A DNA stretch of 64,000 nt, taken from positions 62,001-126,000 of the forward strand of contig PCTW01000061.1 in assembly GCA_002786715.1 (NCBI GenBank), given 5' to 3'. A model generated the notes under the pieces. The model was not told the DNA's origin and did no database searches. It saw only the letters and a list, made by a program, of their open reading frames with translations. The position numbers and the translations under genes were made by a program. Of this stretch, positions 27,827 to 38,564 are shown piece after piece (position 1 is the first letter of the stretch; every line of letters starts with the position of its first letter). The DNA comes from Bdellovibrio sp. CG22_combo_CG10-13_8_21_14_all_39_27 (GTDB lineage Bacteria; Bdellovibrionota; Bacteriovoracia; Bacteriovoracales; Bacteriovoracaceae).

Positions 27827-28345
27827 ATGACTGATTTTAAACAACGCTATTTGGAGTTTTGTAAGCCTTTTGTGGAATCTTTGAAAGATGTCTACAAAAC
27901 AATGTTGAGATGTGAATTAACCCATGAAGCACCAAAGCTTAAGTCTAATAACATTGCTTCTGGTGATTATTCTGCGCTCATGGGAATAAATGGAAGGTAT
28001 GAATTTGGTGATGTTAAGAGGAACTTTAAAGGCTCTCTGGTTATTTCATGGCCAAAGGATTGTTACATTAAATCAGCATCGGCAATGCTAATGGAAGATT
28101 ATACAGATTATAATCAAGAGATATCTGATGTCGGATTAGAAATTTGTAATATTACGATGGGAAATGCCAAGAATATTCTTAATCAGCTAGGCTATTTTAT
28201 CGAAATGTCGATTCCCAATAGTATCTACGGAGCAAATCACGAAATTAATGCCCAGAAGGGTGTTGTTACGATTGTAACGCCATTTACTTCTCCTCTGGGA
28301 AATGTTTTTGTTGAACTCAATTATGAGGATTTTGACTTAAAATGA
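27827..28345 (+). CDS. cheX: CheX-like CheY-phosphatase domain protein
   Basis: 172 residues. The C-terminal two thirds fit the CheC/CheX/FliY fold, with the phosphatase signature E105-x2-N108 in LEICNITMGNAKN. The strand after it (KGVVTIVTPFTSP) matches CheX. It should hydrolyse phospho-CheY in the cytoplasm. First gene of the chemosensory operon; its stop overlaps the next start as ATGA. The N-terminal 40 residues are helical and not conserved in minimal CheX. Confidence 0.75.
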   Translation: MTDFKQRYLEFCKPFVESLKDVYKTMLRCELTHEAPKLKSNNIASGDYSALMGINGRYEFGDVKRNFKGSLVISWPKDCYIKSASAMLMEDYTDYNQEISDVGLEICNITMGNAKNILNQLGYFIEMSIPNSIYGANHEINAQKGVVTIVTPFTSPLGNVFVELNYEDFDLK

Positions 28346-30036
28346 AGGTCCTATACGCAGATCATGATCCTAAAATTCGAAACTACGTTTCGATGCTTTT
28401 GGAAAGTGGTCTCGACTTTGAAGTTTTAGAATGCAGTAGTGGAAATGAAGCTCTTGCAGTATGTGAAATGGAGGAGGGGATTGATTTTATTATTACCGAA
28501 GTGCAAATGCCTAATGGCAATGGTGATAAAATCTTAGAATATTTTGATAATAAAAAAATGAAATTACCTTTTATTTGGCTCTCTGCTCCGGAGAATGAAA
28601 AGGTGATGTTTGTGCAAGAATCTCTAAGCCGGGGAGGAGCTAATGCCTTTGTTCCAAAACCCTTTAAAGATGCAGATTTCTTTCCTCATGTTGAAAAGAT
28701 TATACAATTTGTTGAAGAAGGCGAAACCGTTGAGTTTGAAGATGGAGAGCTAGATGACAATCTCCTCGAGAAAGATACTCAAAAGAATTCTGCAAATTCA
28801 GACGAATTGCACAAAGATGAGTGGGAAAGGGCCAAGGATCCAGAAGCCGCTGATTGGAGCTTAAAAAAAGAACATAAGCACCAAGGCACTGTCGCGGCTG
28901 ATTGGAGCCTAAAGAAAGAACAAGATGACGGTTGGGGTAACCTTAAGAAGAAGGGCTCATCCGGAACGACAGATTCATCAAAACAAAAAAACAAGGAAAG
29001 TGATGAGATCGTTTTCTCTGAAAAAACAAAAGAAATATTAAAAAAACGATTTGAATCTAAAACGAGCGAAGAAGAATACGATTTTTCAAAATATAAGAAA
29101 GTAAAACTTAAAAGATTCTATCAATTCAATTCTGTTCCTTGCGAAGTCTATGTTAAATTATCAAAGACAAAGTATATAAAGATTATTCCAGAGAATGAGC
29201 TCTATGATCATGAGCTTTTAGAGAGATATGAAGGGAAAAAAATAAAATACCTGTTTGTTCCGGTAGAACAACACCCCTATTTAATCGATTTAGTGGGACA
29301 GGAAATCTTTAGCCAGGCAGAAAAGATATTTAATTCTAATTCATCTGTTGAAATGAAATCGGTCGCTGAGTTGGGTATCTTCAATCATGTTAACGAATCG
29401 GTTAAATTGCTCGGGATTTCTGATGCCAATGCTAAAAAAGTTACTCGGGCGGTAGAATATAATTTAAAAACGTTGGCCCAAAATCCAAGCATCTATGATC
29501 TCATAAGCAAAATGATGAAAGGCGATCACTTTGTTTCAGAGCATAGTCTCTTGCTTTCTTATATCTGTGGACAGATATGCTTGAGTACCAGCTGGTCAAG
29601 TAATCAAACTTTAGAAAAACTAAGTATGGCTGCGATGATGCACGATATTGGTTTTGACAATATAGAGCTTGCAGAAGCTCATGATATGCAAAAAAATGAG
29701 TTTGAATTTGATGATGATCAATTAGAAATTATTCATGACCACCCTGGAGTTGCTGCCAAATTAATTACTTCGGGTAAGAGTGTCTTTCCCGACGTTGATA
29801 CTATAATAATGCAGCATCATGAATCTCCAGATGGGCAAGGTTATCCTCGCAAGCTTGGGCCATTGAGTATTTCACCTCTTTCTTGCATCATGATTATAGC
29901 AGAAGATTTTGTAACAAAGATTTATGGAAAATCTAAAGAACAGATCGATATTAAAAAAATAAAAGAAGAATTCTCAGAAAAATATAATAGAGGAAATTTT
30001 AAAAAACCCTTGCAAGGTTTCTTAACTGCCTTTTAA
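28342..30036 (+). CDS. Pseudo-receiver HD-GYP domain protein
   Basis: 564 residues. Residues 1-125 are a receiver domain in which the phosphoacceptor position is Glu53 (TEVQMP; codon GAA at 28498), with the other features kept (D7/D9, S81, K106). A disordered acidic linker (about 126-240) contains the repeat AADWSLKKE twice. A second region (about 250-350) recalls a PilZ-like or DUF3391-like strand domain. The C-terminal HD-GYP domain has MHDIG and HHESPDGQGYP, as in c-di-GMP phosphodiesterases. Glu may mimic a phosphorylated state. Overlaps cheX by 4 nt; cheY follows 12 nt later. Confidence 0.8.
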   Translation: MKVLYADHDPKIRNYVSMLLESGLDFEVLECSSGNEALAVCEMEEGIDFIITEVQMPNGNGDKILEYFDNKKMKLPFIWLSAPENEKVMFVQESLSRGGANAFVPKPFKDADFFPHVEKIIQFVEEGETVEFEDGELDDNLLEKDTQKNSANSDELHKDEWERAKDPEAADWSLKKEHKHQGTVAADWSLKKEQDDGWGNLKKKGSSGTTDSSKQKNKESDEIVFSEKTKEILKKRFESKTSEEEYDFSKYKKVKLKRFYQFNSVPCEVYVKLSKTKYIKIIPENELYDHELLERYEGKKIKYLFVPVEQHPYLIDLVGQEIFSQAEKIFNSNSSVEMKSVAELGIFNHVNESVKLLGISDANAKKVTRAVEYNLKTLAQNPSIYDLISKMMKGDHFVSEHSLLLSYICGQICLSTSWSSNQTLEKLSMAAMMHDIGFDNIELAEAHDMQKNEFEFDDDQLEIIHDHPGVAAKLITSGKSVFPDVDTIIMQHHESPDGQGYPRKLGPLSISPLSCIMIIAEDFVTKIYGKSKEQIDIKKIKEEFSEKYNRGNFKKPLQGFLTAF

Positions 30037-30663: not shown

Positions 30664-32703
30664 ATGAACAACCCAGCCAATGCTATCATTCAAGAGTTTC
30701 TTTTAGAAAGTTTTGAGAATTTGTCAAATATAAATGAAGAATTAACTCGATATGAAAAAAATATTGAAGACAAAGAATTACTCAATGCTATTTACAGAAA
30801 GGTGCACACTCTCAAGGGTTCAGCGAGCTTTTTAGGATTTAAAAAATTGGAAAGTATTACTCATATCGTTGAGAATACACTTGATCAAGTTCGTGATAAT
30901 GTCATTCAAATACAAGCTTCCATGATGGATGTTATTCTTGAAGCCTTTGATGCATGTTACGACCTCCTCAAATCAGTAGAAGAGCATGGTGCAGAATCGG
31001 ATGAAGATTTTTCTGCTCTATTAGATAAGCTAAAATTTACAGATGAAAATGAGAGCTCAGCTCTTAAAGAAATGAAGCCCAGTTTGGGAGATGTAGCAGT
31101 ACCTCGAGTTCAAGAAAAGTTGTCTGCTAAAAAGAGCGAAGCTTTAAAACCTGTCATCATTGAAAAAGAAGTCATTGTGCCAGCAGTTGCGCTTGAAGCT
31201 CCGCCAGTTCAAATGCAGCAACAAGATGATGAACATCATGAAGAAAAAACACAAAAGGCATCAGCCCATATTAATGACTCTACTGTTCGAGTCAATGTGA
31301 AACTCCTCGATAAAATTATGAACGTCGTCGGTGAGTTAGTGATCAATAGAAACCAAATCCTTCAATTTTCAAAGAAAAATGAAGATGCCGAACTTAATCG
31401 ATTTGCGCAAGAATTAAACGTCATCACTACTGAATTGCAAACGGATATCATGACGACAAGAATGCAGCCTGTGGGCCTTGTCTTTACCAAGTTTGAAAGG
31501 ATTGTAAGAGACTTAAGCCGTGCTCAATCCAAAAAAATTAAAATGGATATTCAGGGGCAAGATACTGAATTAGATAAAACTTTGATTGAAGTTATTAAAG
31601 ATCCAATGACCCACTTGGTGAGAAATAGTATTGACCATGGAATTGAAAGCCCCGAAGAGAGAAAGAAACGCGGGAAAAACGAAACCGGAATTTTGGCGAT
31701 CAAAGCCTATCATGAAGGTGGCCAAGTTATCATTGAGATTGCTGATGATGGCAATGGCATAAATACGAAAAGGGTACTTGAAAAGGCCATTGCTAAAGGT
31801 CTTGTTACAGAAGAAGAGTCTTTAAAGTTGTCTCATCAAAAAATTATTAATTTTATATTTCATCCAGGATTTTCAACTGCTGATAAAGTGACCAACATTT
31901 CCGGTCGCGGAGTAGGCATGGATGTTGTGAAGAGCAATATTGAAAAGATTGGAGGAGAAGTCGAGGTCTTTTCCAAAGAAGGTGGTGGCTCAACATTTAA
32001 ACTAAAAATTCCACTGACTTTGGCCATTGTTCCGGCCCTCGTGATTGTCAGTGGAAATGAAACCTTTGCAATTCACCAGAAAAATCTTGTAGAGCTGGTC
32101 ATGTTTGAAGATCAGGATTTGGATAAAATCGAAAGGATACATGGTAATGAGTTTTTTAGATTGCGTGGAGAGCTCATCCCTATTTTTAGGTTGAACAACG
32201 TTTTGAAAATGCCAATCTCTGAATCTACTAATCATGTTACTAATATCGTCGTTTTAAGAGCAGAAGGATTTGATTACGGATTGATAGTGGACCATGTTCT
32301 AGACACTCAGGAAATTGTTGTGAAGCCATTGTCTCGTAAGCTTAAGAATCAATCGCTTTATGCTGGCGCGACCATTATGGGAGATGGAAGAGTTGCACTA
32401 ATCATTGATGCTTACGGTTTCTACAATGTTGTTGAACATGCACAATCTACCCAAGAAGTTGTAAAAGAGCATAATGCTGAAAATGCAGATGCATTAAATT
32501 CGGATCTCCAAGAGTATTTACTTTGTTCTTTAGGCGACAAAGCTCGATACGCCATTCCTTTATGTTTGATCAACAGATTAGAAGAATTTAAACCTTCATC
32601 GATAGAGTGGTCTGGTAAGCAAGCCATTGTGAGGTATAGAGATGAGGCAATGCCTTTAGTTAATATTGAAAAACTACTTGGAACTGATCAAAAATCAGCT
32701 TAG
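30664..32703 (+). CDS. cheA: CheA histidine kinase, C-terminus split by frameshift
   Basis: 679 residues. Hpt domain with H48 in VHTLKGSASFLG, a Glu/Lys/Ala linker (about 130-215) with no recognisable P2 CheY-binding domain, P3 dimerisation helices (VNVKLLDKIMNVVGELVINRN), P4 ATPase (N box LVRNSIDHGIE, DDGNGI, SGRGVGMDV), a P5 CheW-like domain (about 455-590) and the first half of a second CheW-like domain (about 615-679). The reading frame then ends at TAG 32701, and the rest of that domain plus a receiver continues in the -1 frame as the next entry. The protein may be truncated, frameshifted on purpose, or intact if the sequence lacks one A. Confidence 0.9.
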   Translation: MNNPANAIIQEFLLESFENLSNINEELTRYEKNIEDKELLNAIYRKVHTLKGSASFLGFKKLESITHIVENTLDQVRDNVIQIQASMMDVILEAFDACYDLLKSVEEHGAESDEDFSALLDKLKFTDENESSALKEMKPSLGDVAVPRVQEKLSAKKSEALKPVIIEKEVIVPAVALEAPPVQMQQQDDEHHEEKTQKASAHINDSTVRVNVKLLDKIMNVVGELVINRNQILQFSKKNEDAELNRFAQELNVITTELQTDIMTTRMQPVGLVFTKFERIVRDLSRAQSKKIKMDIQGQDTELDKTLIEVIKDPMTHLVRNSIDHGIESPEERKKRGKNETGILAIKAYHEGGQVIIEIADDGNGINTKRVLEKAIAKGLVTEEESLKLSHQKIINFIFHPGFSTADKVTNISGRGVGMDVVKSNIEKIGGEVEVFSKEGGGSTFKLKIPLTLAIVPALVIVSGNETFAIHQKNLVELVMFEDQDLDKIERIHGNEFFRLRGELIPIFRLNNVLKMPISESTNHVTNIVVLRAEGFDYGLIVDHVLDTQEIVVKPLSRKLKNQSLYAGATIMGDGRVALIIDAYGFYNVVEHAQSTQEVVKEHNAENADALNSDLQEYLLCSLGDKARYAIPLCLINRLEEFKPSSIEWSGKQAIVRYRDEAMPLVNIEKLLGTDQKSA

Positions 32704-32711
32704 AGAGCTTG
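32689..32711 (+). other. Apparent -1 frameshift site within cheA
   Basis: The run ATCAAAAATCAG (five A at 32690-32694) sits where the cheA frame must shift by -1 to enter the downstream frame, which is open from 32688. One extra A would fuse the two frames into 888 residues. The joined sequence reads TDQKISLESLKDYD and aligns with TDPKNLRSLVDVNA of the intact paralogue at 39027. Confidence 0.7.
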
Positions 32712-33329
32712 AAAGATTATGATTCCATCTCATGTATTGTTGTTCAGTTTCAAAATCAACTTTTTGGATTAATTGTTCATGAAATTCTTGATATTGGCTT
32801 AACAGATGAAGAGATTGATTCCAAAGCCGTAGACAAGGAAGGCCTGCTTGGAGTCGTTTATATCAATGAGAAATTGACGACTGTTCTTGATATTCACAAA
32901 TTACTAGAAGTAGGGAAATACACAAAAAAAATAAAAGCCCTTAATCCTGTCAATCTCAAAGGGAAAAATAAAGTATTAGTTGTTGAAGACTCACCACTTT
33001 ATAGAAAAATTCAACTCGATTTTTTAACTGAAATTGGAATTGATGTAACCCTTGCAAAAAATGGGCAAGAGGGAATTGATTATTTGAAAGATGGTCATAG
33101 CGTTGATTTGGTCATTACTGATATTGAAATGCCTGTCATGGATGGATGGCAATTGGCCAAAGAAATCCGGAATAGCAATCGACCATTCTCACAAGTCCCA
33201 ATCGTCGCCGTTTCCACCAGAGCTTCTGAAAAGGATTTGCTCAAAGGGAAAGAATGTGGATTCTCACATCATTTAGAAAAGTTAAATAGAGATGAAGTTG
33301 TGCAAGTCGTCTCAAAGTATTTAAAGTAG
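32709..33329 (+). CDS. CheA remainder: half CheW domain plus receiver
   Basis: 206 residues from a TTG 5 nt after the cheA stop; there is no convincing ribosome-binding site. Residues 1-75 are the second half of a CheW domain (LFGLIVHEILDIG, LGVVYINEKLTTVLDI), useless on its own. Residues 87-206 are a full receiver domain with E93/D94, phosphoacceptor D138 (TDIEMPVMDG) and a Lys in EKLNRDE. The reading strongly suggests the C-terminal part of a hybrid CheA, separated by a -1 frameshift. It could still be made as a separate receiver protein. Confidence 0.75.
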   Translation: MKDYDSISCIVVQFQNQLFGLIVHEILDIGLTDEEIDSKAVDKEGLLGVVYINEKLTTVLDIHKLLEVGKYTKKIKALNPVNLKGKNKVLVVEDSPLYRKIQLDFLTEIGIDVTLAKNGQEGIDYLKDGHSVDLVITDIEMPVMDGWQLAKEIRNSNRPFSQVPIVAVSTRASEKDLLKGKECGFSHHLEKLNRDEVVQVVSKYLK

Positions 33330-35346: not shown

Positions 35347-36393
35347 TTGAAAGTACTCGTTGTTGATGATTCTGTAGTTTTTAGAATGGCAATTTCCCAG
35401 GCGCTCTCTGAAGTGCCTGGGATTTCCAATCCTAAGACCGTTAGCAATGGGCAATTGGCCATTCAACATTTGAAAAATTTTCCTGATACAGATCTGATTA
35501 CTTTAGATCTGGAAATGCCAGTTATGGATGGCATTCAAACTATTAAAGAAATTCGCAAGTTTAATCGTAAAGTGATCATTATTGTTTTTTCTTCTCTTAG
35601 CGTTAAGGGAGCGGAGAAAACGCTAGAAGCTCTAACCAGTGGTGCCAATGATTTTGTTACAAAGCAAGAAGCAGGTGGGGCTACAAGTATCGATGCAAGT
35701 CTGGGAATGATTCGAGAGCTCTTATTGCCTAAAGTCTCGGCTTTTTCTAAAAGACAAAACTCTGAACCGATAGCTCAAGAAACGCTCAAAACTAAAACAG
35801 AAGATTTGATTAGCATGACAATAAAACCTCGTTTGATTGTTATTGGTTCTTCAACAGGAGGACCTGAAGCTCTATCAACTATTTTCAAAGGTCTTAATGT
35901 AAGAGCAAATATTCCTATTTTAATTGTTCAGCATATGCCTCCCATCTTTACTGATAAGTTAGCCCAAATGCTTAACAATCTAACTCCGTACGCGGAAGTT
36001 CGTGAGGCCAAGGTTGGAGATGAACTCGCACCGGGTGTTGCTTATATCGCACCGGGAGACTTTCATATGACATTGGAGCAAGGGGGAATGATTAAATTAA
36101 ATCAAGATCCCAAAGTTTGTTTTGTTCGTCCATCGGTTAATGTTTTGCTTGAATCAGTCGCTAAGAATTTTAAAGAGCAACTTGCTTGCTTTATCCTGAC
36201 AGGAATGGGTGATGACGGTGCTGAAGGTTGTAAAAAACTTCCAGCAGCCAAAACATATCAGTTTGTTCAGAGCAAAGACACTTCTGTGGTTTGGGGAATG
36301 CCTGGCGCAACTCTGCAAGCAATTCCTTCAGCGAAGATTCTTCATTTGAATGATGTTTCTTCAATCTTAAATAATATTTTCAATAGGATTTAA
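35347..36393 (+). CDS. cheB: CheB receptor methylesterase/deamidase
   Basis: 348 residues from a TTG start with AGAGG 6 nt upstream, 1 nt after the receptor stop. Receiver domain with D54 (LDLEMPVMDG), a linker, then the methylesterase domain with the catalytic triad visible as GSSTGGPEAL (Ser), QHMPP (His) and TGMGDDG (Asp). It removes methyl groups from receptor glutamates and deamidates glutamines. All catalytic positions are intact. Confidence 0.93.
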   Translation: MKVLVVDDSVVFRMAISQALSEVPGISNPKTVSNGQLAIQHLKNFPDTDLITLDLEMPVMDGIQTIKEIRKFNRKVIIIVFSSLSVKGAEKTLEALTSGANDFVTKQEAGGATSIDASLGMIRELLLPKVSAFSKRQNSEPIAQETLKTKTEDLISMTIKPRLIVIGSSTGGPEALSTIFKGLNVRANIPILIVQHMPPIFTDKLAQMLNNLTPYAEVREAKVGDELAPGVAYIAPGDFHMTLEQGGMIKLNQDPKVCFVRPSVNVLLESVAKNFKEQLACFILTGMGDDGAEGCKKLPAAKTYQFVQSKDTSVVWGMPGATLQAIPSAKILHLNDVSSILNNIFNRI

Positions 36394-36395
36394 TT

Positions 36396-37364
36396 ATGTA
36401 CTTAGGGCAATATTTAATTGAGAAAAAACTAGTTAACGAGAAAGACGTTCTGAGTTCTGTTCTTGAACAAGTGGAGAGTTCCCCTTCTGTGTTAAGGATC
36501 ATCTCTGATCTTAATTTGGTTCCTCCTGCTGTTCTTATCGGTATTGTTGATGCATCAATTAAAGCTCAGAAGAGCGTGAGTCAGATTCTTCTTGAGAAAA
36601 AGCTAATTTCAACTCAAGACTTTGAAAAAGTTTTAAGCGAGCAAGCTCGTCAAACAAGAACTCTTTCTGAAATAATCGTAGAGAAAAAACTTTTAAATCA
36701 CGAAGATTGCCAAGCTGCAATTGAAGAATCTCAGGTTTTAGATTCGAGTTCTGCTTCAAGCGAATCGGAAGGTGATGTAAAGACAGATGTAAGCTCTGCT
36801 GAGGATGGAGATGATGAAGAAATTTCCTGGGCAGCTCTTGAAACTTTAAAAGAAACTGGTGCGGTACCTGAAGAAGAAATAAAGCGACTTGAGGCCAAGC
36901 TAAAAAAAAAAAGTGAAGTAGAACAACCTCCAGCTATCGAAGAAAAATCTAGTGAAATGACTTTGGATTTGTTTACTACTGAGTTCGTCACTCTTCTGAA
37001 TGAGAATAGAGTTCAAGAATTGAAGGAAAAGCTCAATCTACTTGAGGTAGATGGCCTGGATTCCATAGATCAAATTTTTAATGAGCTACACTTACTGACG
37101 GGGGCCGCTAAAATGGCCGGATTGCAACTCTTCGCAAAACTCTTTGAAAGTTGGGAAAAAGTAATAGAGTCGATGAAGAAAACTCAACGGCTAGATCATT
37201 CTTTGATTTCGGAAGGACATTTTATGCTTGATCTCGCATTCAGCTTGAGAAATGGCTTAATAGATTTTGGTAAAGAATCAGTTCTACTTAACAAATTACA
37301 ACTTAAAGAAAAATATTTAGATAATATGAAGAAAGCAATTCTTATTGTAAAAAAGGCAGGATAA
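36396..37364 (+). CDS. Three MshEN-like repeats plus Hpt-like domain
   Basis: 322 residues. The N-terminal 110 residues contain three units of the form LGQYLIEKKLVNEKDVLSSVLEQ, VSQILLEKKLISTQDFEKVLSEQ and LSEIIVEKKLLNHEDCQAAIEES, resembling the N-terminal domain of type II secretion/MSHA ATPases, some of which bind c-di-GMP, though the usual Arg-Leu-Gly start is degenerate. An acidic linker (about 113-195) leads to a helical domain with ELHLLTGAAKMAG, an H box like that of Hpt domains but with Thr for Lys. Possibly a phosphotransfer or CheA-like scaffold protein. Function is not known. Confidence 0.6.
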   Translation: MYLGQYLIEKKLVNEKDVLSSVLEQVESSPSVLRIISDLNLVPPAVLIGIVDASIKAQKSVSQILLEKKLISTQDFEKVLSEQARQTRTLSEIIVEKKLLNHEDCQAAIEESQVLDSSSASSESEGDVKTDVSSAEDGDDEEISWAALETLKETGAVPEEEIKRLEAKLKKKSEVEQPPAIEEKSSEMTLDLFTTEFVTLLNENRVQELKEKLNLLEVDGLDSIDQIFNELHLLTGAAKMAGLQLFAKLFESWEKVIESMKKTQRLDHSLISEGHFMLDLAFSLRNGLIDFGKESVLLNKLQLKEKYLDNMKKAILIVKKAG

Positions 37365-37368
37365 TAGA

Positions 37369-37734
37369 ATGAAAATTTTAATTGTCGATGATTCAAAGCC
37401 AATCTTTATGATGGTTTCTCAGATGCTTAAAGAGCTGGGCCATGATCCCATTTGGGCCGAAGAAGGGCAAAAAGCGATTCAAGTGTTGTCTGAACATCCA
37501 GATGTCTCTCTCATTTTATTAGATTGGAATATGCCAGTTATGAATGGTTTGGAATTTCTTCAATTGAACAAAGAAGATAAATTTTTCGATCACCCCATTG
37601 TTATGATGACAACTGAAAATTCTCCTGAAAAAATCCAAGCTGCTCTTGAATGTGGTGCTGCAGATTATATTATGAAACCGTTCACATCTGACATTCTTCA
37701 AAGCAAGATCGAAATGGTCATAGACATGATGTAG
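37369..37734 (+). CDS. CheY-like response regulator 2
   Basis: 121 residues, single receiver: D7/D8, phosphoacceptor D52 (LDWNMPVMNG), T80/T81 and K104. Four nt after the MshEN-Hpt gene and 8 nt before cheR. A second DWNMP-type CheY in the operon; which kinase it serves is unknown. Confidence 0.9.
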   Translation: MKILIVDDSKPIFMMVSQMLKELGHDPIWAEEGQKAIQVLSEHPDVSLILLDWNMPVMNGLEFLQLNKEDKFFDHPIVMMTTENSPEKIQAALECGAADYIMKPFTSDILQSKIEMVIDMM

Positions 37735-37742
37735 GGGTTTAA

Positions 37743-38564
37743 ATGAAAGATGAAATTTATAAATTTTTTGCGGATTACGTTTTTAAACACTCAGGTATTT
37801 CCTATAAGCCAGGAGACTATTATCGGCTCGATTCAAGAATAATGACACTCATGAGAGCTTTCTCAGTTGATACGCCTGAGGCGCTATACCAGCTTTACGT
37901 TCAAAATATTTCTAAGGAAATGCACACACTGCTCATCGACCTATTTACCAATAATGAAACATATTTCATGCGTGACGTGAAACCTTTTAAGGCCTTGGCA
38001 AAAGGCATTCTGCCTGCTTTAGTAGAGAAAATGACACTTCCTACGCCAATTCAGATTTGGTCATGCGCTTGTAGTACTGGACAAGAGATTTACAGCATCA
38101 TGATGGCGACTGAGACGTTTGGATCATCTGAGCTTTTAAGCAAAATTCGAATTGAAGCTACAGATTTATCTACAGAAGCTTTAGCAAAGGCCCAAAAAGC
38201 TGAATATAATGGCCTTGAAGTGCAAAGGGGTTTACCTGCCAACCTATTGATAAAATATTTCGAAAAAAAAGAAGATCAAGAGCTTTGGAGTGTTAAACCC
38301 GAACTTAAAAGTAGGGTAACATTTGCTCAATTTAATCTATTAAAGGATAAGTATCCTATAAATAAATACCATATAGTTTTTTGTCGGAATGTTCTCATTT
38401 ATCAAGAGATTGAAAACAAAAGATACATTCTGGAGAAAATCCATGATGCTTTAAAACCTGGTGGTTATCTCATCTTTGGAGCAGGTGAGAGTTTGATTGG
38501 AGTAACATTGCCTTTTACTCAAGTTGAGTTTGAAGGTGCTTATGTTTATCAAAAAAAGTCTTAA
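37743..38564 (+). CDS. cheR: CheR receptor methyltransferase
   Basis: 273 residues. N-terminal helical domain (YKFFADYVFKHSGISY, FTNNETYFMRD) and a SAM-binding domain (WSCACSTGQEIYSI as motif I, IRIEATDLSTEAL, VFCRNVLIYQ near the end). It methylates glutamates of the chemoreceptor using SAM. The TNNETYFMR segment is the standard CheR signature (usually TTNET.FFR). Part of the che operon. Confidence 0.92.
   Translation: MKDEIYKFFADYVFKHSGISYKPGDYYRLDSRIMTLMRAFSVDTPEALYQLYVQNISKEMHTLLIDLFTNNETYFMRDVKPFKALAKGILPALVEKMTLPTPIQIWSCACSTGQEIYSIMMATETFGSSELLSKIRIEATDLSTEALAKAQKAEYNGLEVQRGLPANLLIKYFEKKEDQELWSVKPELKSRVTFAQFNLLKDKYPINKYHIVFCRNVLIYQEIENKRYILEKIHDALKPGGYLIFGAGESLIGVTLPFTQVEFEGAYVYQKKS

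Follow-up and report, generated by a model that had tools for sequence, protein, structure and literature searches.

What does a protein that joins MshEN-like repeats to a CheA-like phosphotransfer bundle do in the middle of a chemotaxis operon? The gene in question (36396..37364, + strand; 322 aa) lies in the window, by which we mean the whole 64,000-nucleotide stretch of DNA analysed, and encodes an MshEN-like module, a disordered linker carrying a motif of CheA type, and a CheA-P1-like bundle. The answer that we favor, at roughly even probability, is that it imitates the N-terminal part of CheA in soluble form and serves mainly to dock partners, as an adaptor or decoy, without being a phosphorelay step.

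A fixed slot in the che operon

The first-pass annotation had placed this open reading frame within a che operon, and both the reading frame and its setting in a run of same-strand che genes are confirmed. Thirteen tightly packed genes, among them the gene under study, follow in the order cheX, REC-HD-GYP, cheY_a, cheA1, cheW-REC, cheW, a soluble double-PAS MCP, cheB, the gene under study, cheY_b, cheR, a receiver, and REC-cheA2. Only 2 bases separate the gene from cheB (35347..36393, +) and 4 bases from cheY_b (37369..37734, +), which is followed in the same operon by cheR (37743..38564, +). The cheB gene is found immediately 5' in nearly all homologous loci and cheY_b immediately 3' in most of them, and in genome G019 (L030, 8735-9913) the protein and CheY_b are naturally fused. 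The kinase encoded by cheA1 (30664..32703, +) has a P1 domain with an intact H-K-G-H-E set, no P2 domain that we could see, and no copy of the linker motif described below. The operon also encodes a REC-HD-GYP protein (28342..30036, +), a probable c-di-GMP phosphodiesterase.

Two features of neighboring genes deserve mention. The linker of the REC-HD-GYP protein contains a repeated short motif, ADWSLKK, with two clear copies here and more in relatives (L021, L029, L062), which makes this a second protein of the operon that uses repeated linear motifs. In the window, cheA1 and cheW-REC (32709-33329) are separate open reading frames in different frames, and relatives possess a single gene of approximately 885 residues; the split goes back either to fission of the gene or to a single-base indel near position 32700. 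Pfam matches to FumaraseC_C and DUF4388 are weak, lie below cut-off, and were disregarded.

A single-sequence scan of the genome contigs found no relatives of the protein; they were found by whole-genome search and synteny. Named relatives place the window among the Bacteriovoracia, and the nearest isolate found is Bacteriovorax sp. BSW11_IV. The gene is present directly after cheB throughout the Bacteriovoracia, and several further families of the Bdellovibrionota have it in this position too. Identity to the window protein is mostly below 30%, and the slot cheB-X-cheY-cheR is retained. The full protein is kept without a neighboring cheY in some loci (L065, L082, L092, L290, L292), and versions consisting of the MshEN part only are encoded at L170 (12597-12971), L174 (2536-2904), and L089 (5796-6299, with the linker motif), all three without an adjacent cheY.

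The MshEN-like module and c-di-GMP

Three repeats resembling the T2SS/MshE N-terminal unit had originally been proposed for the first half of the protein. The resemblance holds: the NCBIfam profile NF053729 ("c-di-GMP_motif, MshE-related") matches the window protein with E=2.5e-9 and 36.8 bits, just below the cut-off of 38, and Foldseek matches of the N-terminal half include PilB N-terminal domains (7lkm_B and 7lkn_A, with probabilities of 0.95-0.99 across some 55 residues). It is the count that needs correction, since an AlphaFold model contains four helix-pair units (residues 3-9/15-28, 32-38/44-57, 61-67/73-86, and 90-96/102-121) at a spacing of approximately 29 residues. The model was made with 26 sequences and has a mean pLDDT of 88.6; with a pTM of 0.47, its interdomain arrangement was not relied on.

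We scored the units at the 11 key MshEN positions of the c-di-GMP motif, using the extended consensus of PMC11731258. Unit 1 (36399..36470, +; residues 2-25, YLGQYLIEKKLVNEKDVLSSVLEQ) keeps 7 of the 11 and unit 3 (36573..36644, +; residues 60-83) keeps 6. Unit 2 (36486..36557, +; residues 31-54), the one missing from the earlier count, is degenerate with 4, and unit 4 (36660..36731, +; residues 89-112) keeps 5 and is better preserved in homologues (PLG.ILV..G). Family means for units 1-4 are 7.0, 4.5, 3.4, and 6.4 of 11, and the low values of units 2 and 3 leave no well-preserved adjacent pair: by this scoring, neither the window protein nor the family contains two adjacent well-kept 24-residue motifs. 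The MshE precedent (Wang et al. 2016, PMC5013675) is that two adjacent motifs together hold c-di-GMP, and the GSPII-A domain of PilF, in which one motif is good and the other about 45% conserved, is a published case of a domain that fails to bind it (PMC11731258). Given the poorly kept motifs and these precedents, c-di-GMP binding by the module is possible but is not predicted from its sequence.

The first-pass annotation had suggested that the protein could link c-di-GMP to kinase control. One form of that idea is that the module is a true receptor, in which c-di-GMP binding would switch docking and the REC-HD-GYP protein would lower the c-di-GMP level. The presence of a REC-HD-GYP gene in the same operon is consistent with this, as is the match of the MshE-related profile to 25 of 26 homologues, and a Bdellovibrio c-di-GMP screen caught MshEN proteins with imperfect sites (PMC5013675). 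Against it stand the degeneracy of the site in every adjacent pair of units, the replacement of the first Arg of the motif by Y, F, P, or T and of the last Gln of unit 4 by F/Y or S, and the nonbinding PilF domain with its one good and one poor motif. We therefore retain the MshEN-type repeats from the earlier proposal, and consider a c-di-GMP receptor function unlikely.

A P1-like bundle with a decayed phosphorylation site

The C-terminal half forms a four-helix bundle (37002..37358, +; residues 203-321) in the AlphaFold model, as expected of the Hpt-like domain originally proposed. The best PDB matches of the modeled bundle in Foldseek are CheA P1 domains (1i5n_B, TM 0.83; 1tqg, TM 0.81; normalized by target). 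Pfam Hpt matches the window protein with E=1.4e-4 and 22.5 bits, just below its curated cut-off of 24.6, and the family HMM matches the P1 domains of neighboring CheA1 proteins, with a best E value of 3.8e-8 and 8.2e-7 for the CheA1 of the window itself. When the family bundle was aligned by hhalign, the same-operon CheA1 P1 scored a probability of 97.7% (E=2e-12) and the CheA2 P1 93.8%, and five unrelated helical or receiver alignments used as controls scored at most 0.3%. Judged by profile and model alike, the bundle is a homologue of CheA P1.

The phosphorylation site is a different matter. The H box (ELHLLTGAAK) is present, and His232 (37089..37091, +) aligns with the His that becomes phosphorylated in CheA P1. 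Relative to the reference set H48/K51/H67/E70 (E. coli numbering), Glu+22 is kept but Lys+3, the lysine of HxxKG, is Thr and His+19 is Glu, giving H-T-G-E-E. In contrast, all four residues are found in 38/38 neighboring CheA P1 matches, a comparison set selected by HMM. Among the first 28 homologues tabulated, the His is present in 12, the Lys in 7, the second His in 1, and the Glu in 17, and none has the complete set. A tree of 36 relatives requires at least 10 changes in the state of the His, and the linker motif changes twice on it. The absence of the partner Lys and second His, together with the repeated changes of the His, argues that phosphorelay is not a conserved role of this family.

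Phosphotransfer was probably the ancestral activity, mostly lost since. Two distant homologues outside the family of the window protein, L291 (7512-8555) and L294 (7410-8390), possess a complete H-K-G-H-E site, and on the unrooted tree an active Hpt ancestor is plausible; the MshEN half of L294 is barely recognizable. L023, L028, L236, and L298 keep HKG and the Glu, and such members might still be phosphorylated. These intact or nearly intact sites, with the retained H box, Glu+22, and P1 fold, are what can be said for a working phosphorelay, in which, with the MshEN module in control, phosphate would move from CheA1 or CheA2 to His232 and on to a receiver, CheY_b or a different one. With Lys+3 and His+19 missing from the window protein itself, and the His lost repeatedly and from more than half of the tabulated homologues, we regard that reading as quite improbable. 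The H box of the first-pass annotation thus stands, and the phosphorelay drawn from it is weakened.

The linker motif and a docking model

The part of the protein that the first-pass annotation did not mention is its strongest tie to CheA and its most informative part. A linker motif (ISWAALETLKETG; 36822..36860, +; residues 143-155), modeled as a helix at residues 145-154, is common to the family and to CheA linkers between P1 and P3. Its consensus is [ILV][SN].AALESLKELG, and one to four copies are found between the two halves of the protein. The strict pattern occurs in 38 of the 5,035 open reading frames of the collected loci, all of them members of this family or CheA1 linkers. A motif HMM gave significant matches in more than 30 of 129 genomes of the family, and those among the matches listed are confined to this protein family or CheA linkers; they include 12 CheA proteins with the motif between P1 and P3, which is the P2 position. 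The same HMM revealed two new members, L236 and L258, both encoded between cheB and cheY.

In classical CheA, CheY and CheB dock on the P2 domain, which lies between P1 and P3. The CheA1 proteins of these operons have no visible P2, and Pfam scans of the protein and its homologues detected no P2 or CheY-binding domain, the linker being modeled as a short helix only. In five loci (G111, G113, G036, G039, G054), the motif is found in the CheA1 of the operon, and this occurs only where the stand-alone protein is missing; it is found in CheA1 in none of the 15 loci that have a motif-bearing protein, a comparison between loci that are related rather than independent. In some genomes, for example G010, this protein has the motif and so does another CheA.

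The motif loosely resembles in pattern the FliM peptide VLSQDEVDALL of this genome, and hhalign against the same-genome FliM N-terminal peptide gave a probability of 0.1%, which does not support kinship. Besides the normal FliM, a further protein with the FliM middle domain (212 aa) that lacks the N-terminal CheY-binding peptide is encoded at L133 (2144-2782, - strand; contig C58 of G000).

One large clade of the family lacks the motif. Of all comparisons, CheY_b identity separates the loci most sharply, with 51-70% for motif-bearing loci versus 33-47% for motif-less ones, but the same split is found in all che genes, so that common descent explains it equally well. The CheY_b residues that discriminate motif-bearing from motif-less loci were computed as well, but descent confounds them and some of the aligned rows are probably the paralogous CheY_a, so we claim no contact surface.

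The occurrence of the motif in some of the bacteria's own kinases, together with decay of the phosphate-carrying end, makes docking of chemotaxis partners a probable function, rather than phosphate transfer. An alternative use of the motif would be as a polar-tethering or array-anchoring signal, analogous to the ParP-bound LID of Vibrio CheA, with the protein anchoring or sorting chemosensory arrays. The motif does lie in CheA linkers outside the known catalytic domains, ParP does bind Vibrio CheA at a region dedicated to it (PMC5706961), and the PilB N-domain that the N-terminal half resembles was solved with the adaptor PilZ (7lkm, 7lkn). Since adjacency to cheY and the fusion with CheY are better suited to docking, we think an array-localization role doubtful.

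We propose a hypothetical model for the CheA mimic, with which the MshEN-fold module, the flexible motif-bearing linker, the P1-derived bundle, and the fixed slot between cheB and cheY/cheR are all consistent. The linker motif would bind one partner common to this protein and to motif-bearing CheA; the likeliest candidates are the receiver proteins CheY_b and/or CheB. If the motif binds the same partner as the CheA linkers, the protein would recruit or titrate that partner near the P2-less CheA1. The pseudo-P1 bundle may provide a second contact, with the receiver domain or with the P4 kinase domain of CheA. Least certain is the contribution of the MshEN module, which might set the place or time of docking by contacting another protein or by binding c-di-GMP weakly. 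A more tentative extension, which we consider possible but less probable than the mimic itself, is that a folded P2 has been replaced by a transplantable motif that was then moved into an MshEN-controlled mimic, so that a messenger or localization cue would compete with the kinase for response regulators without phosphotransfer.

The protein is a defined and conserved component of the chemosensory operons of predatory-type bacteria that is apparently undescribed. It supplies a concrete candidate for a P2 substitute in CheA proteins that lack P2, and the recurrent loss of the phosphosite represents conversion of a P1 domain into a noncatalytic module.

The first-pass annotation knew of no described protein with this architecture, and our literature search likewise found no account of it. 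Nor did it find one of the shared motif, or of a stand-alone protein in which the P1 His is lost recurrently, and papers dealing with chemotaxis in Bacteriovorax or with degenerate Hpt domains contained nothing matching the family. Combinations of MshEN with REC, CheA, CheX, or HD-GYP in chemosensory proteins have been noted previously, and the excerpts of that study do not mention a stand-alone P1-like bundle with a CheA-linker motif (Wang et al. 2016, PMC5013675). The module shares with the MshEN/GSPII domains of MshE, PilB, PilF, and NfrB the helix-pair repeat, its spacing, the profile match, and the PilB fold match. Unlike those proteins, it has no attached ATPase or glycosyltransferase, and its conserved residues are divided between units 1 and 4 of four, the middle units being degenerate. 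The bundle resembles CheA P1 in fold, sequence profile, and position of the His and Glu, with the P1 of the same-operon CheA1 as nearest relative, but the window protein and nearly all its relatives lack part of the catalytic set, the kinase is not attached, and the bundle is C-terminal to the docking motif, whereas P1 in CheA is N-terminal to it. The Cle proteins of Caulobacter likewise link c-di-GMP to chemotaxis through nonclassical parts; they are CheY-like receivers without MshEN or Hpt (PMC5677366). CheA proteins without P2 are common (PMC10782961), and the motif occupies the place in CheA linkers of the P2, or CheY-binding, domain (PMC10782961) and so may perform its job, but unlike P2 it is a short linear motif, not folded as a domain, that occurs outside CheA too.
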